From: Diadema setosum
Lineage: Eukaryota; Echinodermata; Echinoidea; Diadematoida; Diadematidae
Assembly (NCBI RefSeq): GCF_964275005.1
Contig: NC_092685.1
Coordinates: 29,224,682-29,288,681, forward strand
Direction of reading: 5' to 3'
DNA: 64,000 bases
The notes under the pieces were generated by a model that worked only from the letters and a program-made list of their open reading frames with translations, had not been told where the DNA came from and did no database searches. Positions 3,763 through 64,000 of the stretch are shown here, piece by piece; the first letter of the stretch is position 1; every line of letters begins with the position of its first letter. The position numbers and the translations under genes are program-made.

Positions 3763-3811
<49 letters not shown>

Positions 3812-4825
3812 CACCCATATATCACTCTATCTTGCATACCGCACAAAATCACCAGCGCCATCAAATGATAGCTTATGATATACCTGTATACTATTTACAT
3901 AATCATACTTACAATGAAGACTGTATTAACCACACTGGCAAGAGCTAAAAGGAAAAGTAAAACCTGTCAATATGGCTGCAACATTGACTTTCGAATTGCA
4001 CCGAACATGACACTTACAGCATCAATCATGCAGTTCAATGTATTAGACAACAGTAAACGTATTTCCCAACGTTTTATGCCATACTTCTACGTTTCTTTTT
4101 ATCAAGAGTAAAATACTCAATATGCGGCAGGGTGCTTATTTCTGGCAGGGCTACTCTCATTCATCAATCAATCAGCTAATGAATATCGTGTGTGCTTAGT
4201 TCAGTGCTCACTTCAGAGCTGAAAAAAAAAATGTCATAAATCTAAGATTGATTCTTCTTGGCAGTATGGGATGTTGACAGACTGGATTTGATCTGCAATC
4301 CCTTTGGACAAAAAAGGCACAATTAATTACAGAGTATTCTGAAGTACAGCCATGTACGTTTCAATCACACCCAACCATAAAAGAACTTGTCGGTTCTATC
4401 ATTAAAAATTTTCATATGACGTCTGGAACAAAATGAAATTAGCTGACATTAGCCATATCAAGCAGCACCCACATAACGGACAGTGATTACATCACATATT
4501 GCACGACTTGACTCGGTACACAGTGGCAAGATATCACTCACATCCTGAAGAAATCACTCGCTGTGGCTACATGTATGGCCTCGGGTCACCTGTTATTATT
4601 ATATAGTCTTGCATTATGTAAATATCTAAATTACAAAGTGCACTTATAAATGCTTACTGATTTGTATATGGGAAATAAAGATCGAAATTTTCGCCTATTC
4701 AAGACCAGTGCTCTAACGACATGATTTGAGACAGTCTTTGCATGTTGTTCTTGTTGTTTTGTCCATGCTGCCACGTCCGACGTTGCTCTGAAATATCAGC
4801 TAGGTATATTACGTATTCACATGCA
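1545..4825. other. 3' flank of gene A, no gene seen
   Basis: It holds simple repeats, poly-T and poly-C/A runs (1,365-1,400; 2,047-2,066) and conserved non-coding homology to 32,945-38,296. Small open frames here are not preserved as proteins between the two copies beyond what DNA similarity explains. Confidence 0.5.
3765..3808 (+). repeat. (TA)n microsatellite
   Basis: It is a pure TA tract in the 3' flank of gene A. The matching place in copy B (about 35,680) has only a short TA/CA tract, so it expanded after duplication. Confidence 0.9.
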
Positions 4826-5145
4826 TCATACGTCAACGGGTTCCCCCGCGCTCTTTCCTGCTGTCGAATCCGGGGACACAGACTCGTATGTTGGTGGAGC
4901 CTCCTCAGGCTTGGGTGATGGCGGAGCGTAGGCTGGCGGAGGTGAAGACGCGTCTCCTGACGCAACTTCAACGCGCGTCGAATGCGTTGACTGCACGTAG
5001 GTGGCGCTGGCAGTTGTTGCGGAGCCCGTCTTCCGATGACTTCGCCAGCAGCAGCAAACTACGAGACACAGCGGTATCACGACCGCCATACTGATCAGTA
5101 CGATCTTCCACGCAGCTAGACCGGACCCGTAATCCGGATATGAAT
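4826..5145 (-). CDS. Gene A exon 9: membrane segment and cytoplasmic tail with PPxY motifs
   Basis: After a short stalk (SYPDYGSG) comes one hydrophobic segment, roughly [15 protein letters not shown], then a CCCW juxtamembrane cluster, a possible palmitoylation site by analogy. The tail has PPPAY and PPTYESV. Both fit the PPxY ligand of WW domains, and YESV also fits a YxxPhi sorting motif. The acceptor cttcag before 5145 is chosen because it is the one conserved in gene B, where the alternative upstream AG is lost. The stop is TGA at 4828-4826. Confidence 0.85.
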
Positions 5146-8100
5146 CTGAAGAGCCTAAGAATTATACATTGTACATAGACAATATCACTTGTATCACCTT
5201 CCAGGATAACATAATCCTGAGAAACGTTTGAGAAAAGTCTTCACTGAGTTCTCTAAGATGACTTATCAATGCTTTGCCATATTCAATGATATAATGCAAG
5301 CACTCTGTAGAAAATCCGAAGCAAGAGAAACTGAATGATATAAACGCAAATTACACCATGCTTTATACGCAAAGCGCAAAAACAATACCGATTGCCCCAT
5401 TGACTGTTATGGGTCTTAAAATGCAGGTATCACGATGCTAAGGATGTATATTTTTCTCCCTTTTTATACAAACCCTGCTTAGTTATACACAGTCTTCGTC
5501 ATAAAGAAGAGGCCATAACGAAGGAACTGAACGGTTAGGAATTTTTTATGAACAATTTTTGATGAATAAACCAAAAGAATATACTTCGCTTCTTCAGGTC
5601 TATGGTGCAATCCCCAGTGGCAAGTCAAAAGGCTGATATCGTGCAATTACATTTCACGATAAACACGTCTGTTATTTTTTCATATATATAGACAGCATCA
5701 TGACAGACGTGACAATTTATCGCTTTAACTTGGAGACCTCTAGAACATTTTTTTTTTAATTTGTCCTCTTACCTGAACTAGAGTGTAAGTGAGGCAGATC
5801 GCCCACACACGTGATGATAGCCAGCTCCTCATTGCTGCAATACGGCGCCCTCTTCCACGCTCCGTGGCTACACTCGAACACCTTGTCGATGCTGTCTTGA
5901 CTGTCTAAAAGGCAGAACGGATCATCAAACCAAACGTAGGGAGATGGCCAGGTGACACCGTCTGTCTCGTGGCTATACAGAATTCGCGCTCTCCCTGTCC
6001 GAGAATGACCCAGTTCCTTGCACAATAACTATCACATAGAGGAAGTTGAGAAAAAACGAGAACATCAAACGAAAGTACTACAACAGAAAAACAAACAAAT
6101 TGAACAAAATAAAGATCATTTATGTTATCTGACAAGTCTAAAGTCATTCACATTCTAAAATTGGATGAAACCATAACTGATAGAAAGGGACTTACTTCGG
6201 TGAAGAGGAAATACGTGTCACACACAGCTCCCCACATACCGTCGTGGTATATCTGTACGATGCCGTACCGCGTGTTGGCTATCCCGGTCTCGGTCAGTAA
6301 CCTGACAGGATGGTTCGCGACACTTTCTTCGTGACAGAAAATAATGATTAAAAAAAGAGTGACACAAAAGTTAGGAAAGCCGTATAAAAAGATCAAATAT
6401 TGCGATATTCTGTTTTGTTTTCCTTTCATAAACAGGTATCTTTTATGTTCCCTGAATTTTGGACTTACAACTGCCCGTCAACCCAATAACTTCTTCAAGT
6501 ATATCTGACATGGGACGGTTGGTTACATAACGCGCATATAAGCACAATATGGCCTGTAGCAGGATTAACCAAACGATCAGTTTCTATCTTAGCTGAAAAG
6601 TGGATCAGTTTTCAATACTTTTGCATGGGCAATGTAATAATTACCGTCCGCTCTGCTCACCCCAATAATCATGAGCGTAACAAATCGGTTGTTGTTCTTG
6701 TTGCTCTTATCATCGTGAGCTTCCACATGGAGACATCCATAGTGAGCGCCCTCGTGGAGATATTATGTTATGCAAAATGCTGCAAGTCTACAAAAGCACT
6801 GATTGAGGTGTATGATACCGTCTTATTTGATGCAAGTATTGTCAGCGGCATATAATTTTTTTCATATATATTTTTCATAAACAAAACAACAACAACATAA
6901 GTTTTGTTTCCTACTTGGTGATGCTTTCTGGAACAATGTCGTGATTGTCACTCTTTCTTTCTTAATTCAGACAGTATCCTGTCTTTGTTCCCAACTGTAT
7001 TTCTGGTACATCATTCCTAACGTTCATCAACATACAATCATGCTTACCATATGGGAAGCAAATCACGGAAACTTCATCTTCTCGTGTTTTCCTAGTTTGG
7101 CCATCTACTACATCTACGTCAAAACAGTCGTCGATCCGAAGTTCTTCACCATGGCAGCCTAAATTTTCGATCAAGATTGGCAGAGTCCCGCGCGGAAATG
7201 ATCCTCTGTCAAAGAAGACGTCAGAACTGAATCCCGCGTAACCCAGCTGGCGACAAATCACGCTGCGACTGCCGTAGGTTAGGAAGGTTTCGGCTATCCC
7301 TCCCCAACGTCCGGCCAAGAAGACTTCCACACGCCCCTGCTCGGAGTACTTGCTGCCGGCGAATCTTATGTCATAGTCTGGGTGCCAAAGAAATACCGGT
7401 GAAAGAATCATTGTAAAACCCAATAGTACGCGACGAGAATCGAGTAATGCATGCATTCTTTTACACACCACAGGAAAGATTACGATGTGGAAGGAGAGTG
7501 TAAGAGAAGAGAGAGAGAGAGAGAGAGGGGGGGGGGGGGAGCAGGAAAGAGAGCAAAGTGGTGAATTTCGTTAGATGTATACAACTACATATCACGATAG
7601 TTAAGACAAAGGAAACTAAGTTATACAAAATTGACACAACATAGGCCTACATCTTCCACAGTGAACAGCAGAGACTTTCACTGCGCAGAATAGAGTGCAC
7701 TCTGTAACGAATAGAGTTACAAACTGTATAAGGAAATTTTCGTTACGAAATAAAAATTCAGGTCCGAAAAGTATCATCTATATATCTTCATATACTATAA
7801 TTAAATTGCTATTATAACGAAATTCCAGTAAAACGCAAGAAAAACGCCGTTCCTGAGGATTTCATTATAACGGGAGTGCAATGAAGGACTATTATATTCA
7901 CCTTTTGGAGGTCCACATGTGACCTGGGCGATCTGATTACTGTCACACTGAGTGATACTCCGGGTCGTGAAGGGGCAGTCGCTTAGCTGTGTTTCCGTTC
8001 CATCGCACCGGTAGTCCCTGAAGAAAATCTTTGCCGACAAGGTGCCAAGAGATACCAGCTTGGTGCTGTTGCCATGTACGTACCCTAACTGGCGACAGAC

Positions 8101-11100
8101 CACGGCTGCCTCCTTTTCTCCCCAGTCCTGGTCGCAGATCAAACCGGGAATTATGTCTTCTCGGTATCTTACGATCCCGTCTCGAGAGCTTGATCCACTG
8201 AGTAGTTCGACCACAACCGACGGCACTGCACGTCAGAAATACATTTGGTGCGAGAAAGAATCTAAGAATATATTATTAATTACACAAAAAGTAAAGGTCA
8301 TGAGTGCGATGGCACAAGAGAAAAAGGCCAATTGAATCTCATCTTTCACCGAACGCGGAATCTCTTTAACTTCACGAAAGCCAGGCCAAAGCCAATGTCT
8401 GACCCTAAATATGACGAAACTGCAAAACGGCGAGTTTCATGAAGAGGAGCCTTTGGAAAGGTAGGTCTGCCCGGTTTGTGGTGTCACCGTGCACTATCAA
8501 AGAAAAGACTGCTGACTGCATTTTCTCTTCGATGTGTGGAGAAAGTGTGATACGGCCCTACATTGTCATGACGGTGGCTGAACACGAATCTTTGTAGGTG
8601 TTGAAATTTGAATATTATGTATACATAGCATTAGCAAGACTGAGATCTTGACCCAAGGCACCGACTCTCCTCCAGACATCCCCATCAATGACACGCATTT
8701 AAGAAATAGAGTTCTTCACCTACCTTGGTTCGACCATCTCCATAGTTCCCTCTCCCTTAACAATGAGACAATGAGATAAGCAATACGATAGGGAAAGCTA
8801 CCGCAGTCAAAGCCAAATTGAACAAGCGCATATGGAACAACTGTTAACTAACCAAGAACACCAAAAGCCTGTGTCCTCAGCACCCTGGTAAACCATTGTG
8901 AGCCCTGGGCAACATACTTTGGCCAGGAGGAGAGGCTGAACACCTTCCACCTCCGCTGCCTCAGACGACTCCTGCACATTAATTTTCAGGATAGGTTGAC
9001 AAACACAGATGTCTCCAAGCGTGCCGGCATTCTCATCATGTTTTCGCTCCAGCCAGAGACGCCTCAAGTGGTTGGATCATGTGCGACGAATGAACCCAGG
9101 CTGTATCCCGAAGGACCTGCTGTTAACAGAGAGCTATGCCCTTTCCAGGAAGGGCGCATCTTCGTTTTCAAGGGTGTGTGTGCACACACACGTGACATGA
9201 AGATATTTGACATCGACACAAACACCATGGCAAGAGGCAGCTGACAATCGTCAGCTGCGGAGAAGCACTGTAAGAGAAGGCGTCAAGAGGACTGAAGCTG
9301 CAAGAAAAGTACATCACACTGACAAGAGAGCCAGCAGGAAGGCAAGGGCTGCCTCAGTCTTAGCCGCAACGGACTGCATCTGCTGCATGTGCTCCAGAGA
9401 TTGTCACTCAAGAGTGGGACTATGCAGCCACTCAAGGCTACACGCCATCGTTTCTCAAGACGAATGGATGCCAACCAACCAACCAACATAAACAACATCA
9501 GCGGACTTGCGCGCACACACACACACACACACACACAAACACAACCCTATTCAAGTGATTTTATGCAATCTGTCCACCATGCTAACGGTTGAATGTGATA
9601 TAATATGCCTTTTTATCTTCAAATCCGTTTTCTAAGGAACTTGACGAACATTACTTAACGAAACTTTGACTCCATTTTGAAATAAGATAATCAGAATGAA
9701 ATTTATCAAAATCATTCTATTTTCATAGAATGGGAAGCGCTCCGTGTAGCATTGACTTACCATTACATACGACACCTGCCATCTGAGCTGACTCGGAATC
9801 ACAGTTCTCATTGTTAGCCCATCCACTTGACAGACAGTCAGAAAGGCTAGCCTCACTTCCGTTACACAGCAAACCATCTAGTAACACAGCTGGTCTACCG
9901 ACACTAGGCACTACCTTTATCGAGCGAGCTCCAACTGGATGTCCTAACTGTTTACAGAAAACGTGCGCGTCTTCGATGCTCCACTCGTGTGTGCAGATCG
10001 TCCCCCACGTGCCTCCATAGAACACCTCCACTCCACCCTCATCCGGGTACTCTCCGTCCACAATTCGAACGGCTGAAACATATCATACATGGAAGCATAA
10101 TATACGACCATACGGTTAAAATAATGAAAGAGGATGTTGCGAAAAAGGACATAATGAAACAGTGCATATGACAGCGACGGCAGTGAAGAGAAAACCCTGA
10201 CATCATTCACATGTAATTGTTTTAGACTCTCGCCAAAGCTTCTACAGTTAAAGCTGGAAATAATGAATTTTAAATATGAAATATAAAATGAATCAAAAGG
10301 AACAAAAATGTAATGATTATGCAGTATACTGAGCCATCAATTCACATAAACCACATCACTGCGATTTGGTATTGGGTCTTTTTCTCTAATATTTACTATT
10401 CATTTTTATAGTAAAGCTGGGTAAAGACTTCCATTTCATTTAACACTTTAGTTGTTAACACTTTTCCTTTTTTCCTTGGGGATAGCAAAACTTTAACAAG
10501 CTTCTTAAACGCCAAACTTACTACAGCTCAAGACTCATAAATTGGCATTGCACTTTAAATGCAAAGATGTCGATTCAGTACTGACAGGACAATTATTTCT
10601 TCATCTAAGAACTGTTCAAAGGAAGTGGCGGGCTAATTAGTCTGTAACAGAAAACGGCGTGAGGCTCACTTTTGGTCTCGCATATCACCCCGGCATCTTC
10701 CGCGTGCGAACAGTCGTTAACACCCCACTCTTTCGTGACGCTGCAGTGCCTCAGGAGAGTATTTTCCGCCGAACAATACACCCCGTCGAGAACAATCGAG
10801 CCCGATCCTCGTCCAAAGCGGGGCTCCCCGGGAGAGGACGCTGAGTTAACTACGGCTTCCAAAGCATCAGGGTAACCAAGCTCACGGCACACGACCCGTG
10901 CATCGGCAATATCCCAGTTGTCATCACACACAGTTCCCCATTCTCCAGATTCAGTGAGAACTTCAACTCGTCCCTCTGCAGGTGTCGAGCCGTTGACTAG
11001 TCGAAGGCTTCCTAGACAGCAAAGAATTTACACGGACAAGCTGAGCAGATTTGGAATTCTCTCGACATTCGAGTAACAATACCTTGACATCACCACAGGT

Positions 11101-11725
11101 GTTTGTTTGTTTGTTTGTTTTTTACGTGAAACCCCAACAAATACATAATTAATGATCTATACCATTGATTGGTAAAAATAAAAGACCAAAACAAATAACA
11201 AACAAACCTCATCGCATCATGATCTAATTAGATTTTCGCGCACTCATTCGCCTTGAATAACAGTAAGTGCGTGCAGGATAAGATCACTTTTCAAACTCTT
11301 GTCTTTTGATTTGCATCAAAGCTTTTTTACAGATTATCCAGCATTCTACTTTTCTGCTCCATGATGATGATTAGGGTCTCAGTTACCTAGGATTATAGCT
11401 TTTTGTGTCTGACTGCCTGAATAAATCAATGATCAACTTGCAACATAATTGATCAATAAGATGGTTACGCGAGCTTCATAACACTAGTTTTAGAGTTATA
11501 CACTCAGTCATAACTTACAACATCGCGTATATCTATCACGTATAGCCCCTCTTATCTACCCTGGGCAAACTCTATCTACGCAAAGGTGCGCCCGGAGAAT
11601 ATAGAATCCTCCTTCTTAATATCCTTTCTAAACGAAAGGTGGCTAGAAAACAGGCTCAATCGTATATCTTTGTGTGGCTGATTGGTCGAGGTTTAATCAA
11701 CAATGTCTACAGTATTGTCTTCCGC

Positions 11726-11766
<41 letters not shown>

Positions 11767-14700
11767 CATTATGTGTGTGCGTATATATTATGACTTTTTC
11801 TTTTCCAATAGTCATGACAGTGATTCCATCTGTCTTCTTCAGTCATGATTCTGGTTTTTTATGTTAGCACAAGTGTTGAGACGGCCGCTGTAACGCAACT
11901 AGGAAAGTATAGAACGAAGGAAGAAGGTGAAGACGTAATTCATCTCTTGCATGTTTTATCTGGTCATCGGAGATTGGTGACGACGAAAGAACAAGTGAGG
12001 ATACCGCACTTACCTACTGTAGTGCACGTAACGCCTGCGGTTTTGGATTCATGGCAACTCTTGACGCCTACACCGGCATGCTGGCAGGTCGATATGTTTG
12101 ATTCAAGGCCATTACATTGCACTTTATCCAGAAGTACGGGGCTATTTCCTCGCTGAAATGGCGAAGCTACCAGAGCCAGGTCCGCCCCGATGTAGCCGAG
12201 CTGTTTGCAGACAACCTCGGCATCCTCGGGTCCCCACAGGTTGTCACATATCGCGCCCCAAGTATCGTCAAGGAAGACTTCAACACGACCCTCAGAGTCA
12301 ACGCTGCCATCGACTAGTCGAACCGACCTCGCAGCTGCAATCAATGACAGACATCCAAAGCAAATATTCTCATAATTTGAACTTTGTATTATGTTACAAA
12401 ATGTTTCAAATATCAGTATACAGTATGTAATGTTCAAACTTGTGATCGATTTTATGGATGATGCATGAAGATATTTGGAAAAAACGCAAACGCCCAGCGA
12501 TGTCTCGCCAGCATGCATATAGCAATATGTGATTACAGTGCTTTTCAACGTATATTTCATTGACCTTTTTATCACTGACCTTGTGGTTCTTCACCAATAC
12601 ATATATAAACTTGATCGGCATCTTTAGGTGTTGCACACGCGGCGTGAGTTTTGTGGTCTTAGCTCAAAGCTGTGAAAAGTTATTGAAAGTACACAATATA
12701 TGACACCTATTATAGTTAAAGTTCACCGACACTTTGAACTTTGACCTTGTCGAAATTCACCACTATTTGGAACTTGACAGGCATATTAGATGAAGTACTT
12801 GCATTTGGTATGAGCTTGGCTATTCATAGCTCAAAGCTTTGGAAAGGTTATTTAGAGCACGCTACAATATCTTATGGACCAGTGCTTATCAGGTAAAGTT
12901 TATTGACCATTTGACCTTTGAACTTATCGGACTTGGTCCAAACTATATTCAAACTCGACCGGTATTTTTTACCTGTCATGTCGTCGGCGTTTTCACGAAC
13001 TGACGCTATTTCGATTTTGGTCAAAATTTTCAAAATCGAGATATTGGTACCAAATGAAAGTGCTTTCAAAACTCTACCAAATCCCAAAATTTTAAATCAC
13101 AAAATTAATTATTCTTAATTTTATCAAAGAAAGAAAAAAACGACGGTACTCGAAATATCGAGAAATTGAGAAAAAGGGGTTTCACGAACCGACGCACGAA
13201 AGATACGCCGGTTCGTGAAACCCGAATTGCTACGGTGAAGAGCAATGCGGGTTTCACGAACCGTCGCAGTTGCATTACTTTGAGCTTTGTTCAACTTACT
13301 GGCCTAGAATTAGGTTTTGGCCCTAATCCAGATCTCAGAGTGAGAACCAAACCTTCTGAAAGATGAATGACGGCCTAAGCCAGCCCACTGTCCACGAGTG
13401 AAGTGAATGGTAAGCTATAATCCTATTAAAATCATGCTCAAAATAACAGTTTCAGTTGGACTACCATAACCATTAATTGCGGTAGTGTGTAGTCCCATGT
13501 ATTCAATCGCGTGATGCTTATGAAGCCTAGTCTGTAAACGCCATCCAATTTCAAATTAGATCCCAAATCATATTATTTATTGTTTCTTTTCAACTTATGT
13601 CGTTACTTCTGAGACTACTGAGTACTGTAGTCGTAACGTCTGTGTGCAAGACATGCAGATTGCAAGATTTCAAAGTCTCGAAGACACTAAAAGCCTTGAC
13701 TTTTGAGTTGAAAATGAAATCATGAGATTGACAAAGTAGGCGTACTAAACAAAAAAATAAATAAAAAGTCTAACAGTAAAACTCAAAGGAAGAGTAAAGA
13801 ATAAAGTTAGACATGTTAGACTTTTACTTTCAAGTCTAACTATTAAGTCTAAGTTAAGACTTGTAATACCAGTTACTAAAACTAAGATCAGCTGAAGTCT
13901 AAGACCAAGTCAAATTAACACAGTTCAGAGCCATACCGGTAGTCTAGCTCTAGATCTACATCTAGACTAGTGGTAATAGTAGGTAGAGTCCACCCATTTT
14001 TTCCCCCAATCTTTACTGGTCCATTCCTGAAAAAGTTACTGGTCAGTGTCCAACAGTGATTTTTCCTGGTCAGGGACCGTCGGACCAGTGCCAGTGTGCA
14101 GCGTTGGTGTAGATGTCATCTATGACAGTATGTGGTCTAGTGATACTACCTAAACACTACGAGTACTCTACAGGTTAGGTGGCTTTCCTGTACAGTGCAG
14201 TGTTAAAGTATACTTGTGAATTCAGCCCTAATACCGTACTGTGTGTAGTGTATGTCTAACGTTAGTTCGAGTGGAGTACCTAAGCACAGCGGTGGGGCTT
14301 TTTTCCCCTAAAACTTGTGAATGTGGCCCAACCAAATGGCGTTTATATATTTAGGCTTGATTGATAGTGATACAGTGGCGCTGTCGATTTCCACAGCAGC
14401 CAAACATAATCTTTTGTCCTTTCTTCTTTCCTTTTTTCCCTTTGTTCTTTCACTCTTTTTATTCTTGGAATCGAAGGACTTCCTAAGAAATGTCCCTCGA
14501 CTGATTTAACCAGGACTCTTGAGTCCTGGTAAACCTAACCTTACTCTTGAGTCCTGGTAAACCTAACCTTACCGAGTAACCGTTAACGTTTGTTAGGCCT
14601 AACATAACAGTAACACTGACTTAGCCCTGTATTGACTTTGTCTTTGGCCGACTTACTGAGATGGCGAGTCTCACTCTTTAACGTTAGTCTAAACGTAGTC

Positions 14701-17700
14701 GCTAGATCTGTCAGTGTCAGTGTCACCGGTTATTGTATATGGTGCCATCTCTAACGTACTTTAACAAGTTGATGTTAGTTATCTATGTCAACTTACTGAT
14801 TTAGTAATAGTGGTACTGTCATCCTGTTGGACATCGCCGAAATATCATCCGTGACGTGTTAATTTCGTGTCACAAAGACAAAAGTTGCCAAGATCTAATA
14901 GTATTAGATGTCTAAATTTAGATGTAGTCTAGATCTAAGTAATATGAAATCTGTGTAACTTAAAAGTGAAAGGTCTAGACTTCACTTAGTCTATAATTAG
15001 ACCAGACATTCATGAGGCAAAGGCCTATTTAGTAGATCTATTCTTATTCTATTTTAATGTCAATTCCTGCTAACTCGCCACGTGTTATTCCTAAGGCCAA
15101 GGACTTCCGGGTTAGTGATTTTTTTTGTTGATAAATACCAAACAGCAGACGTGTTTCATTTGCATTCTTGCACAGACTTCATGAAAATATATGCAGTATC
15201 AAAGAAATATGATGCACATGACAATGCCACTGTTTTATAGGTGAATGGTTAATACCTTTAAAAGCTGAATGATAATGTAGAGTCTAGGTCTAATTAAGAT
15301 GATACAGTCTCTGATAAGAAACAGGTTTGATTGTCGTAGACTGTTTCCCAAATGCAGGTAGTAATAATCAGCTACTTCAATGCAATGCCTTGTTTACAAG
15401 TACATGTAGATTTATATTCATGTGAATGATAATTCAATTTCTACATGAGACTTACTAAGTGCTAGACATAAGATCTTGCATCATTAAAATGTGTAAATGA
15501 CGAGACAATTTGAATATGGATCAAAGACGAACAGCAGTATATTTTGACATTCTTTGATCCTGCATAGGCCTACCATTTTGTTTTATGTTTAATATAAATA
15601 GAGCAAAATAATTTCAACTTCAGTTTTGTTGGCTGATTTTTTTTCTTCTCAAAATTAAAGTTGTATCTTGTACCATGATGTTTGATTTTAATCAAAAGTT
15701 CTTAATTTCTTTCTTTTCTTTCAGATGACTGGTGCCATGTAGTAGCGAAGAACTGGACTGTCTCAGAAAAGAAAAGAAAAAGTACAGGGTCGTGTACATC
15801 ATCAACGGATGTGAATACAATGGTAATTAGAGTCTAGGTCTAATCAAGATGTTAAAGTCTCTGATAATAAAGAAGTTTGATTGTCGTAGACTGTTTCCCA
15901 AATGCAGTTAGTAATATTCAGCTTTTTCAAAGCAATGCCTTATTTACAAGGACATGTAGATTTATTCATGTGAATGATAATTTAATTTCTACATGAGACT
16001 TACTAAGTGCTAGACATAAGATCTTGCATCATTAAAATATGTAAAAGGCGAGACAATTTGAATATGCATCAAAGACGAACAGCAGTATTTTTTGACATTC
16101 TTTGATCCTGTATATCATTTTGTTTTATGTTTAATATAAATAGAGCAAAATGATTTCAACTACAGCTTAGTTGGCTGATTTCTTTTTCTCAAAATGAAAG
16201 TTGTATCTTGTATCATGATGTTTGATTTTAATCAAAAGTTCTTAATTTCTGTCTTTTCTTTCACATGACTGATGCCATGCAGTAGCGAAGAGCTGGACTG
16301 TTTCAGAGAAGAAAAAAAGTACAGCATCGTGCTTATCATCAAGGAATGTGAATACAATGGCTTAGGAAAGAAGACAATCTACAGATAGGATAGAAGGGAG
16401 AACTTGGGATGAAGGGCGACAACATAAGGACGGTATATCTACATTAAAATGTGATTGTAAAGTGGAAACATGAAAGAAGATTCTAAGATTGAAGGTGAAA
16501 ACATGCATTCCATTCTGTGATGTCGTAATTACAATTTTGCTACACTTTAATAACACTACTGAGAGACATTTATATCAAGGCAAGCTTCATGTGGATATGG
16601 AATGTTAGATTTTCTTTAAGTGTTCATTGGTATGTATTTCATGATAATAAATCTTGAAGGTTTTGTGTGGTAATCATAACCTTGTGATACATCTTGATAA
16701 ATTTTTTAAGTGCACATTGGCAATATTCAGATGATGCTGTAATCAGATGAAGTTAGATGGTTGAATAATCATTGCATAGTTGTAATAGTTATCGACTGAG
16801 GATTAACATGCCCTTCACTGATTTATTTTTCGTAAACGGTGATAATTGCGAGAGTCAATCTAAATTGTCGGGGGCATAACCAAATGTGTCACACTGTCAA
16901 AATGTGTATATCAGAAACTTTTCGCTCGCTGTACGAATTTTCACAGAAAACAGATTTATGAGAGTCACAAATGGTAGCTTAGACCCATTAACAAAAAGTC
17001 CCAGCTTCATCTTCAACCATGTTCATGATACATGTTCATCTACATTTTGCAAACATTCTGAATGTTGATTGAGACATGTTATACATGTATGTATTTTTAT
17101 GAAATTAATGCAACAAATAATCAAATATGCATCTCTGCTAGATGATAATATTAATCCAGTTAATGACATGCCAAACTCACCTCAAACTGTAATTCATTCT
17201 ATTCTCCTTTATTCTTTTATTTATTATTTTGTTGTCTTCAACCCACTTTGAATGTGTTACGTATGATTCTTATAAACATGGGAAATGCACTCCATATAAC
17301 TGATAGGACTTATAACAAATTGACATAATCATTCAACCATCACTAGACAGTTCTGTTATGAGATGTTCTTTATTTAACTAAAATTGTAAATTATGATACG
17401 TGTATGCTCCCATGCAAACTCACAACAAAATACAGAAATATGATTTCTTTTAATAATAATTCATTATGTCTCTAAATGTACAATTAAAGAAAGTGATTAC
17501 AAAGAGGATGTCAAACATTGTATATTAAAATAATAGATTATTCATTTGTCTCCATCCGTAGTAACACATGCAACTGCAGTGTGCAGTTTGTGGGCTGCTG
17601 TGAAAAAAAAAAAAAAAAAAAAATCACAGGCAGCCCAAGCGGGATTCGAACCCACGACCTCCGGATTACTAGACCAGCGCCATAACCACTAGACCACCGG

Positions 17701-20700
17701 GATGCCCTAGCACTACCTTTAGACATGAATGATTAAATATAGAAGGGCTTGGGGGCGCTTCGAAGTTAACTGCTCTTATTAAATATGCACATGTCATTTG
17801 CAACTCGACTAAAGATGATTAAACGCACTGAAATTCTTACTTTAAATAATATTCATAATCTGTTTTTTTTTTTTCTTTAATAGCTTGGGATGTACACTTC
17901 ATACACTGTATCGGTCTACATTTCGCCTACAATATGGAATTCTTTACTTCGAGACGTTTGTTTTTTACAAAAGAAAATTAAGAGTCCTTTAAAGGTGCTG
18001 TAAAACAGTGGCGTGTTTTTGTTTTTGTTTTGTTTTTTTTTTTTTGGGGGGGGGAGGGGAGTCAAATTAGCCTTGGCCCCTCTCCACGGTCCTTTCCCCC
18101 CCCCCCCCCCCCCCCCTTTGGCTGCATTTTTTTTTTTAGTCATCACATGAAAATTCGTCTGCATCCACCCCGTAGTTTTGCAGATGACCTTTCTTTTTAA
18201 TTATCTTAACCACACACAATTTTGGCTGAATTTCCCCACCCCTCTTGTGAATTTGCTAGCACATGTGTTTATAGTACTGGTGGATTAAGGATTCGGAGGG
18301 GGGGGGGGGTCGGCCAAAATTTCTCTTTTCTCATATGTAACAAGCCTACGGGGCGAAAGGCTGATATTATGGGCTTTCTACACACATTTTTAGATGCTAA
18401 TTATTGGTTAATATGAGCACGATCATTTATGTTGTGATTAATTTGTTTCCTTTTCATATATGTATAACTATTAGAGACTTAATTGGCTTGGCACTCCTTA
18501 CATCGACCTATTTTAGACACCCATTTCCTTCTCTCTCTCTCTTGCTTTTTCTCTACTGTCCTGTGAATAGTGTAACTACATGTACATGCAGTACCTCTTC
18601 TCTTTTGTATGATATACATCAAGTTTCCATCTGAGCATAATGTGTGTTGCAGCACTCACAAGCTTCATGCATATGCAGCAACATCTTTTTATGTTCATAT
18701 ACATAATTATGCTTGATATATTAATTTGAGAATGTTATTCTTTCTTTTGTATATGTTCCGTCCGCACTCTATAGATGTAAATGTAAATTGTAAGATTTGG
18801 TGCGCATGTTCGAACTGTGTTTCTCTTTTTGTGAACACACAAGAACTGATGTAATAATGAACTTGAATTACGCATATTCTTTAATATTGATTCCATCTCC
18901 ATTTGCCATTAGATATTCATTGATTTATGGAGCTCTTCCACAATTGTTATCCTTCCCATTGTCATTACTCATCTCTGAATAATTCAAATTTGATACTTTA
19001 TTGAGAACCTATGTTTCTTCGATTACATAATGTACCTCTTCAATATATTGCTGCAAAAGGCATAATAAAACATGACCATTGTTATATATTTAAAATGAAG
19101 CTTGAAATTCTGATAATTTTGATATTTATGTATTTTTAGGAGTTTATCAGTTTCGAAGAGTGCATGCAGGATGAGTTTTATGTTTTTATATGATCAAGTG
19201 CAGCTATCAAAGAATCTGTTGAGCAGGAAAGAGAAAGATGGAAAATGAGGAATTATGAGTGAATTCGCATGCAAGCCAAATGACAATAATGACACCGATA
19301 AAAATTGTGACAAAGTAAAAGTCACAAATGTGGAATAATAAATAAAGAAATTAATAGATTATTTCAGAGAAAGAAATAACAGAGTGCATGAGTATGAAAG
19401 ATGAGTAAATGCAAGTAATCATTACAGACTGGCACATCTTTTTCCCTATATTTAGCGGTATCCTTCATCTTAGAACAAACATTCATAATTATTATGAAAG
19501 AAGTGAACTGAATTTGAATTAAAAATTATGTGAAAAATAAAGAAAGTAAGTTAAAAAAGTAAAAAATAAAACAGTAAAAAGTAAAAAAAATATGAAACAC
19601 AGTATACCGAGTACATATTAATTACCAAATGATAAATGTCCACATGCAAAAGTGTTGAATAATATATCCACACAAAAAAGGAGGGGGGAGGGCAAAGAAA
19701 TCTTTGGAGCGATCAACGACAGCTCTAATAACAATGCTAAATGAAGATGAAAACAAGGACAACACGCTTTTTAGAACAATGAAGAGAAACTGGCTTATAT
19801 TATCATCTTAATTATCACCTAATGTATTATAATCATCACAATAATCATTACATGACAATTAATTTCAATTAATAAGGTTATTGTTGATAAGCAGGTATAG
19901 CCCTAATAGTATTTGTATGTAAACACATACGAAAATGAAATAGCGACGGTTCGTAAATACACGCGTAATGCACGTTACCTATTGTGCAGGCCCTACAGCG
20001 CGGGTCTCACGAACCGGCGTAATACAACTTACGTCGGTTCGTGAGACCCGCGCTTAAGTACATAACCTATGGTGCGCGCAAGAAACGATGGATTTACGAA
20101 CCGACGCAGTGAGTTTGAAGACAGAAATATCGTAATTCTTTTGAATTCACACTAAAATTACACTATGGATAGGAAGAACAACTTCCACTCTCATCACCCT
20201 GTCAAAATTTTCACACACAAGACAGGAAAAGTCATTGAAAACGTTGTCTAAAACTTGTGAGATCTTTAAACGCGATTTTCTCAGAATTGCATTTTCGCTC
20301 AAAAACGAAATAGCGTCGGTTCGTGGTAACACCGACGATGTGAGTTTGGTGGTCATAGCTCAAATCTGTTGAAACTTATTGATAATCCCTCACATTACTG
20401 TGAGTACAGTGAATATCAGGAAAAGTTCATTGATATGTTGATCTTTGACCTTATCGGAGGTAATCAATATTCGAACTTAAATGACAGCTATAGGCTTGGC
20501 ATCTGTGGTATGAAACTGGTGGTGATATGCTATAGTAGCTCAAAGCTGTGGAAAGTTACTGAGCGTACACCACAATGCTATGTGTACAGTTCATAGCCCA
20601 TTTGACCCTAATTTGAACGAGAACTTGGTACATGCATAATACTTTGCCTTTTTCCGAATTTCGTATAGAAAAATCAAATGTGCAATCAGAATATAATAAA

Positions 20701-22946
20701 TTACAAATACAAACGTATGCAATTATATTTGTGCAGTTTCGTATACACAGCATAATACAGAGCGAATTAAAAAAAGTAATCAAGCTTTGGAGGGCTACGA
20801 TTTCATAGTTGTCAGATATGGAGAGCAGATTTTTTTTTTTTTTTTTTGGGGGGGGGGGGGAGAAAGAAGAACTCTTCCTCTTTCCATTCATACTTCTATT
20901 TATGTTGAAAATTGTCACGCGTGACTGAGCACATGAACTTTAAAGGCAACAATGACAAATCGCACTTTTTCCAAGTTTGAGTGTCACATGAAGGAACAGT
21001 GAAAGTCTCACCGAAGGGATGGGATCTGTCAATGAAAGTGGTCAAATTGACAGGCCAGCCTGCATGACTGTAGGTTTGAGTTCCTTCTTCTAATACAACC
21101 TTCAACATGGCCACGGTTGTTGATAAGTCGGTCACTCCCACAAAGGCTAACCCATTATCCATTTTCTCTCTTCATATTAAAGACATGGTTTGTCGCTGCA
21201 AGCTATATGTTGAATATGAACACAGAAAAAATGGACTGGTGGGTTTGCGTAAGTTGAGTGACCACGTTACAGGACATGTGGACCATACAATGTTAGAAGA
21301 AACCCTGAACACAAACCCTTAACACAAACCTGCATTTGTACAGGGTGGTCTGTTAAAGACAACAATAGGAAAATGCACTTTTCCCAAGTTTTTGGAGTAT
21401 TATCGTGAAAAAAACAATGAATGTCTCATTGAATGGTTGAGATCTGTAAATGAAAGTGATCCAATTAACATGGCATCCTGCGTGATTGCACAGCAGATTT
21501 GTGTCTAGGGTTTCTTCTGACCTTTTATGGTCCATAACCTTTAACGTGGCCACATTGTCCATATCTCACGATCACGTGGCCACTTCCACAAATGCTAACC
21601 CATTATCCCTTTTCTCTTTTCATATTCAAGACATAGTTTATCGCTGAGAGATGTGTTGAATATGAACAGAGAAAATGGACTGTGTGTGTTGAGCTTTGTG
21701 GGAATGACCAAGTTATCGGACAGGTGGCCATGTTAGATATGGACCATAACATTAGAAGACATCCTAAACACAAACCTGGCCTATTTATTTGACCACTTCC
21801 ATTGACAGATCTCATCTATTTAAGGAGATATTGATTGTTCCTTCGTGATGACACTCAAATTTGGAAGAGAGCAATTTGTCACGATGGTTGTCTTTAAAGT
21901 TCATGTGCTCTGTCACGCATAACATTTGTCAATATAACTAGGTACCAATGGAAAGAGGAAGGGTTCTTCTTTCTTCACAACCAAACGAACATTGGGTCCT
22001 CCGTAGCTGATAATTATGAAATTTATAGTAGCCCTCCAAAGTTGGATTACCTTTTTTTTTATTCGAACAGAACTGTGGTATGAATTGAATATTGAGTATG
22101 CTTTAAACAAATAAAAAAATAAATATTTTGCTTATATACCTCAATCCAAACAACAGCACGTGAAATACGACGGAAGATTCAATGACAATGCAGACGCTAT
22201 ATGACGATTGGTAAAATTTATTTATTTAGTTAGTTGCAGTACAACAATAGACACGATTCCACCAGTTGAGTTGAATAAACTCACTGTGAATTTAATTCAA
22301 ACTAAGATGATTATCTAATGCAAACTAATTTACAGATGACAGAATATCAACACATTACTCTATCGTGACTTTTTTCTTTCCTATATTATCACATGCATGA
22401 TATTAGGCAGCGAAAGCGTTTCGACAAGTTTAATATTTAACAATAGAGAACCTCACTAGTCCACGCTTATTATACACATACTCTTTGCGAATGATACCAT
22501 TTTTGTTCACTCCCTATTAAACATTTGGAAATTTTACCACGTACCACACTAAATTCATCAAATTATCATCTGGAAAACTCAAGAATTATCTTAGCACAAA
22601 CGTTCTTTAAAACAGCACGGCCCGATGTCTGAAATTTTGTACCCAACAACTTTAAACAAAGTAAATCTAAATTCACTCTTTCAAAGGACAGTTTGAGGAT
22701 ATGTTACATAATTATAATGTCTAATCATCCGGATGATTTTCACACTTTGACATGTAGACAACTAGAAATTGGTTTCAGTGTTTATAGTGATTCTGGGATG
22801 TCTAAATAAAAATGTTTTACAAATTGAAAACAAATAAAAATGAACAAGGATGGTGACATGGCAGTTTCACCGTAAAGATGAACGAGTTGGGGCTCAGAAT
22901 AAAACACGAAAGCACGTATGAATTTCAAGTAGGTTAACCTGTTAAG

Positions 22947-35900: not shown

Positions 35901-36210
35901 ACATTAACTTTCGAATTGCACCGAGCATGACACTTACAGCATCAAAGGAATAAAGAAATGCAGTCCAATGTACTAGATGACAGTAAACGTTTTTCCCAAG
36001 ACGTTTTATGCCATACTTCTATGTTTCTTTAAATCTATACGACTCTTTTTTTTTTGCTTATTTTTCCTGAGGTAACCGTCTTCATTGAAACAGATGTTTA
36101 TCATAAAAACAATGGTCTTCCTCTTTTTATGAATATGCAATATGCATAGTAATGGCCTCACTTCAGAGCTAAAACAAGGAAAAGTAGAAATTACGCAGTG
36201 CGTAATATAT

Positions 36211-37468: not shown

Positions 37469-38048
37469 AAAAAAAAATGTCATAAATCTAAAATTGATTC
37501 TTCTTGGCAGTGTGGGATGTTGACAGTGTGTTTATTTCGTCAAAATCAGCCAACATAGATCTGTGAGGCGGAGAAATAAAGCGCATTTTGATGTTTGTTT
37601 GTCTTTTTTTTTCTGAATTACGGGCCCTGGTAGGACTCTTGCAATACCGGGTAGGCATTTATTTTTCTTGCTCTAATGCATGTTGATTTATATGTACAAA
37701 CGTGTATTACCCTCGAAAATGAGACTTCACTATGGAGATGCTACGTTTCAATCACACCCAACCATTATAGAAATTATCTGTTCTATCATTGAAAATTGTC
37801 ATATGACGTCAGCAACAAAATGACATTAGCCAACATTTAGGGGCCTAGTATACCTATCAAGTAGCATTCAAATACATGTACAGTGATTACATCAGATATA
37901 ACTACACGTGTATAACACATCGTATATTGCACGGCTTGCCGCCACCATTTCTAACTCGGTGTGCAGTGGCAAGATATATCTCTAACATCCTGATAAAATC
38001 ATGAGTGTTGGCCCGACGTCTACCTCTGATGGCCTCGGGTCACCTATT

Positions 38049-38054
38049 TTTATT
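38049..38054 (-). terminator. Candidate polyadenylation signal of gene B
   Basis: AATAAA on the minus strand lies 243 bp past the stop codon. The matching place in gene A (about 4,592) reads AATAAT-like sequence, so gene A may use a variant or a different site. Confidence 0.3.
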
Positions 38055-38296
38055 CAGTCTTGCATTATGTAAATATCTATGTTATAAACTACACATATAA
38101 ATGCTTACTGATTTGTTTATGGGCAATGAAGGCCGAAATCTTCGTCTGATCAAGACTATAGTGCCTTAACTGCCCAGTACATGGCTTGGGACAGTCTTTG
38201 CATGTTGTTGTTCTTGATGTTTTGTCCATGCTACAACGTCCGAGGTTGCGCTGAAATAGCAGCTATAGGTACATGTATATTGCGTATTCACATCCA

Positions 38297-44600: not shown

Positions 44601-47600
44601 CTCTCGACATTCGAGTAACAATACCTTGACATCACCACAGGTGTTTTTTTTTACGTGAAACCCCAACAAATACATAATTAATGATCTATACCATTGATTG
44701 GTAAAAATAAAAGACCAAAACAAATAACAAACAAACCTCATCGCATCATGATTTAATTAGATTTTCGCGAACTCATTCGCCTTGAATAACAGTAAGTGCG
44801 TGCAGGATAAGATCACTTTTCAAACTCTTGTCTTTTGATCTGCATCAAAGCTTTTTACAGATTATCCGGCATTCTACTTTTCTGCTCCATGATGATGATT
44901 AGGGTCTCAGTTACCTAGGATTATAGCTTTTTGTGTCTGACAGCCAGAATAAATCAATGATCAACTTGCAACATAATTGATCAATAAGATGGTTACGCGA
45001 GCTTCATAACACTAGTTTTCGAGTTATGCACTCAGTCATAACTTACAACATCGCGTACATCTATCACGTTGCCCTCTTATCTACCCTGGGCAAACTCTAT
45101 CTACGTAAACGTGCGCCCGGAGAATATAGAATCCTCCTTCTTAATGTCCTTTCTAAACGAAAGGTGGCTAGAAAACAGGCTCAATCGTATATATTTGTGT
45201 GGCTGATTGGTCAAGGTTTAATCAACAATGTCTACAGTATTGTCTTTCGCGAATATATATCATGACTTTTTTTTTTTCAATAGTCATGACAGTGATTCCA
45301 TCTGTCTTCTTCAGTCATGATTCTGGTTTTTATGTTAGCACAAGTGTTGAGACGGCCACTGTAACGCAACTAGGAAAGTATAGAACGAAGGAAGAAGGTG
45401 AAGACGTAATTTATCTCTTGCATGTTTTCTCTGGTCATCGGAGATTGGTGACGACGAAAGAACAAGTGAGGATACCGCACTTACCTACTGTAGTGCACGT
45501 AACGCCTGCAGTTTGGGATTCATGGCAACTCTTGACGCCTACACCGGCATGCTGGCAGGTCGATATGTTAGATTCAAAACCATTACATTGCACTTTATCC
45601 AGAAGTACGGGGCTATTTCCTCGCCCAAATGGCGAAGCTACCAGAGCCAGGTCCGCCCCGATGTAGCCGAGCTGTTTGCAGACAACCTCGGCATCCTCGG
45701 GTCCCCACAGGTTGTCACATATCGCGCCCCAAGTATCGTCAAGGAAGACTTCAACGCGACCCTCAGAGTCAACGCTGCCATCGACTAGTCGAACCGACCA
45801 GGGAACTGTAATCAATGACGGACATCCAAAGCAAATATTCTCAAAATTTGAACTTTGTATTATGTTACAAAATGTTTCAAATATCAGTATACAGTACGTA
45901 ATGTTCAAACTTGTGATCGAGTTTATGGATGGTGCATGAAGATATTTGGAAAACAACGCAAACGCCAAGCGATGTCTCGCCAGCATGCATATAGCAATAT
46001 GTGATTACAGTGCTTCTCAACGTAAATTTCATTGACCTTTTTATCATTTACCTTGCGGTTCTTCACCAATACATAAACTTGATCGGCATCTTTAGGTGTT
46101 GCACACGCGGCATGAGTTTTGTGGTCTTAGCTCAAAGCTGTGAAAAGTTATTGAAAGCACACAATATATGGCACCTATCAGTTAAAGTTCACCGACACTT
46201 TGAACTTTGACCTTGTCGAAATTCACCATTGACTATTTGGAACTTGACAGGCATATTAGATGAAGTACTTGCATGTGGTATGAGCTTGGCTTTTCATAGC
46301 TCAAAGCTTTGGAAAGGTTATTTAGAGCACGCTACAATATCATGTGGACCAGTGCTTATCAGGTAAAGTTTATTGACCATTTGACCTTTGAACTTATCGG
46401 ACTTGGTTCAAACTATATTCAAACTCGACCGGTATATTTTACCTGTCATGTGAGTTTGGTGGTCATAGCTCAAATCTGTTGAAACTTATTGATAATCCCT
46501 CACATTACTGTGAGTACAGTGAATATCAGGAAAAGTTCATTGATATGTTGATCTTTGACCTTATCGGAGTTAATCAATATTCGAACTTAAATGACAGCTA
46601 TAGGCTATATGCATTTGTGGTATGAAACTGGTGGTGATATACTGTAGTAGCTCAAAGCTGTGGAAAGTTACTGAGCGTACACCACAATGCTATGTTTACA
46701 GCTCATAGCCCATTTGACCCTAATTTGAACGGGAACTTGGTACATGCATAATACTTTGCCTTTTTCCGAATTTCGTATAGAAAAATCAAAAGTGCAGTCA
46801 GAACACAAAACATTACAAATACAAACGTATGCAATTATATTTGTGCAGTTTCGTATACACAGCATAATACAGAGCGAATAATTACGATTTCAAAGTTGTC
46901 AGATATGGAGAGCAGATGTTTTTGGGAAGAAAGAAGAACTCTTCCTCTTTCCATTCATACTTATTGGCCCGAATTCACGAAGGTGGTACAAATGAAACCA
47001 TGGTTTAAACCATGGACAAAAACTATGGAGCGCCAAGTGTCGCACGGAATATTTCGTTACGAAAATGGTCATTTCGTCGACAAAATGATCGTTTCGTTAA
47101 CGAAATTATCATTTCGTGGATGAAATGTTCATTTAGATACAAAAAAATGTCATTTCATTACAAAATAATCATTTCATTGACGAAATGTCTGATTTCGTAA
47201 CGAAATATTCCATGCGACACTTGGCACTCCATGGTTTTTGTCCATGGTTTAAACCATGGTTTCATTTGTACCACCTTCGTGAATTCGGGCCATTATGTTG
47301 AAAATTGTCACGCATGACTGAGCACACGGACTTTACAGGCAACAATGACAAATCGCCCTTTTTCCAAGTTTGAGTGTCACATGAAGGAACGATGAAAGTC
47401 TCACCGAAGGGATGGGATCTGTCAATGAAAGTGGTCAAATTGACAGGCCGGCCTGCATGACTGCAGGTTTATGTTCCTTCTTCTAATATAACCTTCAACA
47501 TGGCCACGGTTGTTGATAAGTCGGTCACTCCCACAAAGGCTAACCCACTATCCATTTTCTCTCTTCATATTAAAGACATGGTTTGTCGCTGCTAGCTATG

Positions 47601-59762: not shown

Positions 59763-62700
59763 CGTCGGTGTTACCACGAACCGACGCTATTTCGTTTTTG
59801 AGCGAAAATGCAATTCTGAGAAAATCGCGTTTAAAGATCTCACAAGTTTTAGACAACGTTTTCAATGACTTTTCCTGTCTTGTGTGTGAAAATTTTGACA
59901 GGGTGATGAGAGTGGAAGTTGTTCTTCCTATCCATAGTGTAATTTTAGTGTGAATTCAAAAGAATTACGATATTTCTGTCTTCAAACTCACTGCGTCGGT
60001 TCGTAAATCCATCGTTTCTTGCGCGCACCATAGGTTATGTACTTAAGCGCGGGTCTCACGAACCGACGTAAGTTGTATTACGCCGGTTCGTGAGACCCGC
60101 GCTGTAGGGCCTGCACAATAGGTAACGTGCAATACGCGTGTATTTACGAACCGTCGCTATTTCATTTTCGTATGTGTTTACATACAAATACTATTAGGGC
60201 TATACCTGCTTATCAACAATAACCTTATTAATTGAAATTAATTGTCATGTAATGATTATTGTGATGATTATACTACATTAGGTGATAATTAAGATGATAA
60301 TATAAGCCAGTTTCTCTTAATTGTTCTAAAAAGCGTGTTGTCCTTGTTTTCATCTTCATTTAGCATTGTTATTAGAGCTGTCGTTGATCGCTCCAAAGAT
60401 TTCTTTGCCCTCCCCCCTCCTTTTTTGTGTGGATATATTATTCAACACTTTTGCATGTGGACATTTATCATTTGGTAATTAATATGTACTCGGTATACTG
60501 TGTTTCATTTTTTTTTATACTTTTTACTGTTTTATTTTTTTTACTTTTTTAACTTACTTTCTTTATTTTTCACATAATTTTTAATTCAAATTCAGTTCAC
60601 TTCTTTCATAATAATTATGAATGTTTGTTCTAAGATGAAGGATACCGCTAAATATAGGGGAAAAAGATGTGCCAGTCAGTAATGATTACTTGCATTTACT
60701 CATCTTTCATACTCATGCACTCTGCTATTTCTTTCTCTGAAATAATCTATTGATTTCTTTATTTCTTATTATTCCACATTATTTGTGACTTTTACTTTGT
60801 CACAATTTTTATCGGTGTCATTATTGTCATTTGGCTTGCATGCGAATTCACTCATAATTCCTCATTTTCCATCTTTCTCTTTCCTGCTCAACAGATTCTT
60901 TGATAGCTGCACTTGATCATATAAAAACATAAAACTCATCCTGCATGCACTCTTCGAAACTGATAAACTCCTAAAAATACATAAATATCAAAATTATCAG
61001 AATTTCAAGCTTCATTTTAAATATATAACAATGGTCATGTTTTATTATGCCTTTTGCAGCAATATATTGAAGAGGTACATTATGTAATCGAAGAAACATA
61101 GGTTCTCAATAAAGTATCAAATTTGAATTATTCAGAGATGAGTAATGACAATGGGAAGGATAACAATTGTGGAAGAGCTCCATAAATCAATAAATATCTA
61201 ATGGCAAATGGAGATGGAATCAATATTAAAGAATATGCGTAATTCAAGTTCATTATTACATCAGTTCTTGTGTGTTCACAAAAAGAGAAACACAGTTCGA
61301 ACACGCGCACCAAATCTTACAATTTACATTTACATCTATAGAGTGCGGACGGAACATATACAAAAGAAAGAATAACATTCTCAAATTAATATATCAAGCA
61401 TAATTATGTATATGAACATAAAAAGATGTTGCTGCATATGCATGAAGCTTGTGAGTGCTGCAACACACATTATGCTCAGATGGAAACTTGATGTATATCA
61501 TACAAAAGAGAAGAGGTACTGCATGTACATGTAGTTACACTATTCACAGGACAGTAGAGAAAAAGCAAGAGAGAGAGAAGGAAATGGGTGTCTAAAATAG
61601 GTCGATGTAAGGAGTGCCAAGCCAATTAAGTCTCTAATAGTTATACATATATGAAAAGGAAACAAATTAATCACAACATAAATGATCGTGCTCATATTAA
61701 CCAATAATTAGCATCTAAAAATGTGTGTAGAAAGCCCATAATATCAGCCTTTCGCCCCGTAGGCTTGTTACATATGAGAAAAGAGAAATTTTGGCCGACC
61801 CCCCCCCCCTCCGAATCCTTAATCCACCAGTACTATAAACACATGTGCTAGCAAATTCACAAGAGGGGTGGGGAAATTCGGCCAAAATTGTGTGTGGTTA
61901 AGATAATTAAAAAGAAAGGTCATCGGCAAAACTACGGGGTGGATGCAGACGAATTTTCATGTGATGACTAAAAAAAAAAAATGCAGCCAAAGGGGGGGGG
62001 GGGGGGGGAAAGGACGGTGGAGAGGGGCCAAGGCTAATTTGACTCCCCTCCCCCCCCCCCAAAAAAAAAAAAAAAAAAAAACACGCCACTGTTTTACAGC
62101 ACCTTTAAAGGACTCTTAATTTTCTTTTGTAAAAAACAAACGTCTCGAAGTAAAGAATTCCATATTGTAGGCGAAATGTAGACCGATACAGTGTATGAAG
62201 TGTACATCCCAAGCTATTAAAGAAAAAAAAAAACAGATTATGAATATTATTTAAAGTAAGAATTTCAGTGCGTTTAATCATCTTTAGTCGAGTTGCAAAT
62301 GACATGTGCATATTTAATAAGAGCAGTTAACTTCGAAGCGCCCCCAAGCCCTTCTATATTTAATCATTCATGTCTAAAGGTAGTGCTAGGGCATCCCGGT
62401 GGTCTAGTGGTTATGGCGCTGGTCTAGTAATCCGGAGGTCGTGGGTTCGAATCCCGCTTGGGCTGCCTGTGCTTTTTTTTTTTTTTTTTTTTTTCACAGC
62501 AGCCCACAAACTGCACACTGCAGTTGCATGTGTTACTACGGATGGAGACAAATGAATAATCTATTATTTTAATATACAATGTTTGACATCCTTTTTGTAA
62601 TCACTTTCTTTAATTGTACATTTAGAGACATAATGAATTATTATTAAAAGAAATCATATTTCTGTATTTTGTTGTGAGTTTGCATGGGAGCATACACGTA

Positions 62701-64000
62701 TCATAATTTACAATTTTAGTTAAATAAAGAACATCTCATAACAGAACTGTCTAGTGATGGTTGAATGATTATGTCAATTTGTTATAAGTCCTATCAGTTA
62801 TATGGAGTGCATTTCCCATGTTTATAAGAATCATACGTAACACATTCAAAGTGGGTTGAAGACAACAAAATAATAAATAAAAGAATAAAGGAGAATAGAA
62901 TGAATTACAGTTTGAGGTGAGTTTGGCATGTCATTAACTGGATTAATATTATCATCTAGCAGAGATGCATATTTGATTATTTGTTGCATTAATTTCATAA
63001 AAATACATACATGTATAACATGTCTCAATCAACATTCAGAATGTTTGCAAAATGTAGATGAACATGTATCATGAACATGGTTGAAGATGAAGCTGGAACT
63101 TTTTGTTAATGGGTCTAAGCTACCATTTGTGACTCTCATAAATCTGTTTTCTGTGAAAATTCGTACAGCGAGCGAAAAGTTTCTGATATACACATTTTGA
63201 CAGTGTGACACATTTGGTTATGCCCCCGACAATTTAGATTGACTCTCGCAATTATCACCGTTTACGAAAAATAAATCAGTGAAGGGCATGTTAATCCTCA
63301 GTCGATAACTATTACAACTATGCAATGATTATTCAACCATCTAACTTCATCTGATTACAGCATCATCTGAATATTGCCAATGCGCACTTAGAAATTTATC
63401 AAGATGTATCACAAGGTTATGATTACCACACAAAACCTTCAAGATTTATTATCATGAAATACATACCAATGAACACTTAAAGAAAATCTAACATTCCATA
63501 TCCACATGAAGCTTGCCTTGATATAAATGTCTCTCAGTAGTGTTATTAAAGTGTAGCAAAATTGTAATTACGACATCACAGAATGGAATGCATGTTTTCA
63601 CCTTCAATCTTAGAATCTTCTTTCATGTTTCCACTTTACAATCACATTTTAATGTAGATATACCGTCCTTATGTTGTCGCCCTTCATCCCAAGTTCTCCC
63701 TTCTATCCTATCTGTAGATTGTCTTCTTTCCTAAGCCATTGTATTCACATTCCTTGATGATAAGCACGATGCTGTACTTTTTTTCTTCTCTGAAACAGTC
63801 CAGCTCTTCGCTACTGCATGGCATCAGTCATGTGAAAGAAAAGACAGAAATTAAGAACTTTCGATTAAAATCAAACATCATGATACAAGATACAACTTTC
63901 ATTTTGAGAAAAAGAAATCAGCCAACTGAGCTGTAGTTGAAATCATTTTGCTCTATTTATATTAAACATAAAACAAAATGGTATACAGGATCAAAGAATG
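59763..64000 (-). mobile_element. Same transposon, copy 2, inverted and cut by the window edge
   Basis: It begins CGTCGGTGTTACCACGAACC at 59763, the right end of the element. It then follows the reverse complement of 20337 down to about 16097 with only scattered differences, which implies recent activity. Flanking ATGT (59759-59762) is the expected target duplication, but the other end is outside the window. It is inserted inside the TTAA-type element that starts at 59369, in the intron of the plus-strand SRCR copy. Confidence 0.85.
62390..62467 (+). other. tRNA-Thr-like module, transposon copy 2
   Basis: It has the same 78-nt sequence as the module in copy 1. The following bases read TGTGC before the T run instead of TGTGA. 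Its presence in both copies shows that it was part of the element before these insertions. Confidence 0.6.

Follow-up and report, generated by a model that had tools for sequence, protein, structure and literature searches.

Miniature inverted-repeat transposable elements (MITEs) are noncoding, high-copy, bounded by terminal inverted repeats (TIRs), and mobilized in trans, with lengths of a few hundred bases. Large nonautonomous CACTA-like and Mutator-like elements with captured DNA combine multikilobase noncoding interiors with subterminal motif arrays; CACTA ends are associated with target-site duplications of 2–3 bp and Mutator-like ends with 8–11 bp. Here, we analyze an element at 12982–20337 of a 64,000-nucleotide stretch of Diadema setosum DNA (contig NC_092685.1, positions 29,224,682 to 29,288,681; hereafter, the window). 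It resembles MITEs in all but size (7.3 kb) and shares with the CACTA-like and Mutator-like elements a multikilobase noncoding interior, subterminal motif arrays, and captured sequence, but it departs from them in duplication length and termini.

According to PMC3627910, the Sola2 elements of amoebae duplicate 4 bp of AT-rich target in the form AWWT and end in short, imperfect TIRs of 12–21 bp; they include versions with a deleted transposase and unrelated interiors. The element and its relatives share with these the AWWT-type 4-bp duplication, imperfect TIRs, multikilobase size, and common ends around unrelated interiors. They differ in TIR length (~45 bp at 82% identity here) and in content: the amoeba elements encode a Sola2 transposase and/or Fanzor1, whereas no coding sequence is seen here.

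We conclude that the element very probably belongs to a young family of large nonautonomous cut-and-paste DNA transposons present in high copy number. Its kind is a known one, a nonautonomous TIR transposon, and it is Sola2-like in target choice. Fixed inverted ends, a constant 4-bp duplication, an empty site, nearly identical copies at many places, and the absence of recognizable coding sequence are directly observed.

Insertion and family-wide ends

The insertion, its empty counterpart, and a second copy occupy these positions:

12978..12981, no strand: left target-site duplication ATGT, read from the sequence
12982..20337, forward strand: transposon, 7,356 bp, with ends fixed over copies
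12982..13026, forward strand: left TIR, 37/45 positions matching the right TIR
20293..20337, reverse strand: right TIR, from inverted comparison with the left end
20338..20341, no strand: right target-site duplication ATGT, read from the sequence
46448..46451, no strand: empty site with one ATGT in the tandem paralogue, from paralogue comparison
59763..64000, reverse strand: second copy, inverted, 98.8% identical, running into the window end

The element reads CGTCGGCGTTTTCACGAACTGACG... from 12982 and, inverted, CGTCGGTGTTACCACGAACCGACG... from 20337; ends across the family run CGTCGG...CACGAACC. Compared as inverted sequences, the two ends agree at 28 of their 32 outermost positions and at 37 of the outermost 45, and 0 of 200,000 random pairs of window positions reached the latter score (best, 34/45). 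When the element's flanks are joined with a single ATGT, they align to the paralogue at 96.75% identity over 400 columns with two gap openings; identity is 95.7% and 96.3% when longer stretches of the paralogous flanks are compared. The second copy is bordered by ATGT at 59759–59762 and by ATGT on its far side too. G+C content is 35.3% in the element and 38.7% in the window minus both copies. An earlier note on this DNA had described imperfect 32-bp inverted ends starting CGTCGG, a 4-bp ATGT duplication, a preinsertion site with a single ATGT, and an unusually large element; all four descriptions hold, and the 18 complete copies collected elsewhere measure 5.9–8.6 kb, which rejects classification as a MITE.

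The genome search covered 912,680,840 bases in 102 contigs. The TIR pattern DNNNCGTCGGNNNNNNCACGAACNGACG gave 314 matches, against 0 for its reversed control. Queries with the left 201 bp and the right 200 bp returned 190 and 203 candidates, the best 40 of each at 99–100% identity. Two nonoverlapping samples were then examined for ends and duplications. Both ends were present in 18 of 20 loci from other contigs (a count that excludes L020 and L024, which the stretches taken cut short). The second sample paired the first 100 TIR matches, all on contigs C1–C4, with neighbors within 60 kb, yielding 46 end pairs and 8 unpaired ends, relatives' ends included. Pair lengths were 6.75–7.36 kb in 30 cases, 3.9 kb in one, and 7.6–48.9 kb in 15.

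Consistent ends with a 4-bp duplication over many copies had been named beforehand as the test of the claim. All 18 complete loci show the same end bases and a 4-bp duplication, and 44 of the 46 pairs have identical 4-bp flanks left and right, against 14% expected from pooled frequencies. The duplications take the form A-N-N-T (first base A in 43/44, last base T in 42/44, each middle base A or T in 37/44), a profile slightly biased by the pattern, which on each strand excluded C as the first base of the duplication.

Sequence divergence points to recent spread. In a 19-copy alignment, 16 copies differ pairwise by 0.9% on average, so that the earlier description of the element as young stands for these sampled copies; their variable sites comprise 361 singletons and 68 shared sites, a star-like pattern. 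The other three (L015, L021, and L028) lie ~4% away and lack ~440 bp around element position 3,773–4,216. The same stretch is absent from a further copy, L031, which has perfect 24-bp TIR cores, an AATT duplication, and 88–94% likeness in pieces.

Several points weigh against this account of the family. The 16 young copies are the best left-end matches, and their age is that of the family's youngest part, with older copies underrepresented. In two of the 46 end pairs the flanking 4 bp do not match, and 8 ends among the 100 listed lack a partner. Neither an autonomous partner nor a transposase was found, relatives with the same ends being noncoding in the parts examined. Motif binding and the use of one shared enzyme, discussed below, are steps that we infer.

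Interior, end structure, and relatives

The interior shows no recognizable coding capacity, in agreement with the earlier reading of the element as nonautonomous and without a visible transposase. Its longest stop-to-stop frame is 94 codons, and a six-frame Pfam search of the window copy (E up to 0.1) gave no match, a search that a transposase unlike Pfam models and split into short exons would escape. The following internal features were located:

13206..13266, no strand: left subterminal palindrome composed of TIR motifs, z −5.7 as a hairpin
19997..20054, no strand: right subterminal palindrome composed of TIR motifs, z −7.2 as a hairpin
15268..16360, forward strand: two tandem units of ~548 bp, 90% alike, from self-comparison
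17629..17703, reverse strand: tRNA-Thr(AGT)-like sequence, a passenger (Rfam score 43.1 bits, gathering score 29; ARAGORN)
62393..62467, forward strand: tRNA-Thr(AGT)-like sequence in the second copy (ARAGORN)

The ends are set apart by a short motif. Counted on both strands, ACGAACC or ACGAACTG is found nine times in the outermost 430 bp of the two ends combined and 0 times in the 6,496 bp between; three copies of ACGAACC/GGTTCGT stand in another 52.4 kb of the window. Near-perfect palindromes of the motif lie ~220–340 bp inside each end, and 0 of 200 shuffles was equally stable at either end. The motif arrangement is the same in L031 and in the relative L040, with fewer motifs in the relatives L037 and L043. 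These copies are putative transposase-binding sites.

The tRNA-Thr-like sequence is the sole Rfam match above its gathering score within the element. ARAGORN, run with the bacterial code on 21 loci, called tRNA-Thr in 19, an odd tRNA in L012, and none in L020, whose tRNA-bearing part lies outside the stretch scanned. The sequence is present in L031 and absent from the L038/L039 copy; the window and L040 versions are followed by a run of T flanked by short inverted repeats. Divergence from the window copy was computed after removal of tandem cross-matches and of alignments shorter than 230 columns. In young copies it is 0.5% for the tRNA-like sequence and 0.8% for the element as a whole; in three older copies the corresponding values are 8.0% and 3.7%. 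A gene under selection was therefore rejected for lack of any sign of constraint, and the sequence is treated as a passenger.

A search with an end-variant pattern (32 matches; control, 2) led to three relatives whose interiors differ. L037 (3.9 kb; duplication ATAT) has a ~30-bp TIR in common with the window element and little besides. In L040 (8.1 kb; duplication ATTT), the likeness to the window element covers ~250 bp at one end (81%) and ~750 bp at the opposite end (88%). The L040 interior contains ~880-bp repeats along with three tRNA-Thr-like units (L040 2171–2897); among the best 40 of 73 candidates matching such a unit, 2 lie in L040 and 12 on C78 (~26,791–52,628), and the L040-type unit is a tRNA-derived repeat independent of the element, both dispersed and clustered.

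The third relative, represented by L043 (C5:21647767) and L044 (C26, ending at 648757), is a second young family with the TIR CGTCGGTCGCATYACGAACCGGCG and a first ~130 bp ~71% like the window element. That TIR, searched with flanks excluded from the pattern, gave 205 matches (control, 0). By position, 44 copies could be paired among 100 ends listed, 33 of them 6.6–7.0 kb long and mostly ~6.75 kb. The left 376 bp of this second family is 99% identical at 39 other places among the best 40 of 215 candidates. The L043 sequence examined spans 2.6 kb, the right ~4 kb lying outside it. Six-frame Pfam searches gave no match in L037 or in this 2.6 kb, and the two frames of L040 that were searched held no recognized domain. 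The window element thus represents one family among several that have their ends in common and, in the parts examined, hold no genes; that one transposase moves them all would be the simplest reading.

Transposase candidates and competing assignments

Longer and variant copies were sampled as possible autonomous elements and rejected in turn. A 14.4-kb copy on C6 contains a nested insert, in which lies a LINE-like frame of 836 codons. L033, L035, and L042 contain LINE-like, DIRS-like, and Gypsy-like inserts, and L038/L039 carries a fragment of a Gypsy-like insert (labels from frame appearance). The long/variant pair L036 proved to be family sequence; L032 and L034 are family sequence adjoining other DNA; L041 carries extra 548-bp units. 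Perfect-TIR variants gave 57 matches (control, 0), and L031, the sole one examined in full, belongs to a noncoding older subfamily. An end pattern with a five-base spacer had no genome matches.

Coding sequences near such ends fared similarly. A 409-codon frame inside a C12 copy of the L043-type family has 47 genome matches, many in open frames of ~400 codons; L046 1–375 (C12:27075450–27075824) is its C-terminal part, and Pfam gave no match to its last 125 codons. As a transposase it was rejected: its 18 matches on C1–C10 fall outside the second-family ends listed, and the insert is absent from L043/L044. From the coordinates we read it as another coding repeat nested in the C12 copy. Two domains guessed to be transposases, DUF6589 (21 matches) and DUF7869 (32 matches), have no match between ends listed for any end pattern.

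For the nonautonomous element itself, the proposed mechanism is as follows. A transposase encoded elsewhere, acting in trans, would bind (C)ACGAACC in both TIRs and in the subterminal hairpin palindromes, cut the element out, and insert it elsewhere by way of a staggered cut of 4 bp. The interior, including the tRNA-Thr-like passenger, would be carried along, and the same enzyme probably moves the L037, L040, and L043 types too.

Which enzyme this might be is a matter of superfamily. Repbase classification, according to PMC4455052, uses equal duplication length together with alignment of positions 1–11 with a classified element. The earlier note held that ends and target length alone do not settle the assignment, and we agree: ANNT favors Sola2-like machinery, yet no transposase was found. 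We entertain as a tentative possibility that the element is a nonautonomous Sola2 (Sola superfamily) moved by a Sola2 transposase; the outer A and T and the A/T-rich middle positions of the duplications fit the AWWT reported in PMC3627910. Against this stand the unseen transposase and the existence of other superfamilies, Academ and Chapaev, with duplications likewise near 4 bp.

Another known superfamily with 4-bp or 3–4-bp duplications (Academ, the Chapaev/CACTA group, or Ginger1) is unlikely to be the source. Duplication length alone is compatible, and CACTA-like elements often have subterminal motif repeats, but Chapaev ends begin CAC and Ginger1 ends TGT, not CGTCGG as here. We consider it improbable that the element is moved by the transposase of a superfamily yet to be described: none of the known ones has been tied to these ends, and DUF6589 and DUF7869 have no match between the ends listed, but a missing transposase is what the limited extent of the search would lead one to expect. 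A similarly long shot is the broader scenario that one transposase, possibly of a new superfamily, drove several sequence-unrelated, gene-less 4–8-kb elements through one genome in the same recent period, with little beyond a terminal motif and the ANNT target in common and one family amplifying a tRNA-Thr-like sequence.

Other superfamilies fail on the duplication. piggyBac and Kolobok duplicate TTAA, which is not seen among the duplications of the 18 loci and 44 pairs. Duplications of hAT (8 bp), P (8 bp), Mutator (8–11 bp), Merlin (8–9 bp), Transib (5 bp), Tc1/mariner (2 bp), and Harbinger (3 bp) all differ from the 4 bp found here. A segmental duplication or assembly artifact, suggested by the element's position in a tandemly duplicated cluster, deserves next to no credence, as many contigs carry the same ends with their own 4-bp duplications at unrelated sites and an empty site exists. 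We recognized no account of this family in a literature search that included PMC3627910, PMC4455052, and PMC10294476, a negative of little weight because repeat-library entries lie outside such literature.

Neighborhood and implications

The element sits in a tandemly duplicated region (2351–12981 and 34256–46451) that is 83–96% identical in pieces and contains SRCR-domain frames; Pfam PF00530 (SRCR) was matched in all three neighborhood frames searched. The insertion point lies ~400 bp past the end of the SRCR frame at 11964–12575. Elsewhere in the window, two palindromic stretches (46954–47302 and 47823–48150) are 93% alike and each ~84% self-complementary. The paralogue near 21414–21418 lacks the second of these, which therefore resembles a small MITE-like insertion for which an empty site is likewise present. 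A tandem array at 36223–37343 consists of about seven 158-bp units with a AGGTCAAAGGTCA repeat inside the unit.

Size is usually thought to hinder transposition. The family offers a clean, recent example of very large gene-less elements at high copy even though their transposase source is rare or hidden. How ~7-kb elements succeed becomes a testable question, with the subterminal palindromes and the shared motif as candidates, and the empty paralogous site can serve directly as a presence/absence marker. Discovery of the partner would make it possible to test a transposase that was active recently and accepts large cargo.

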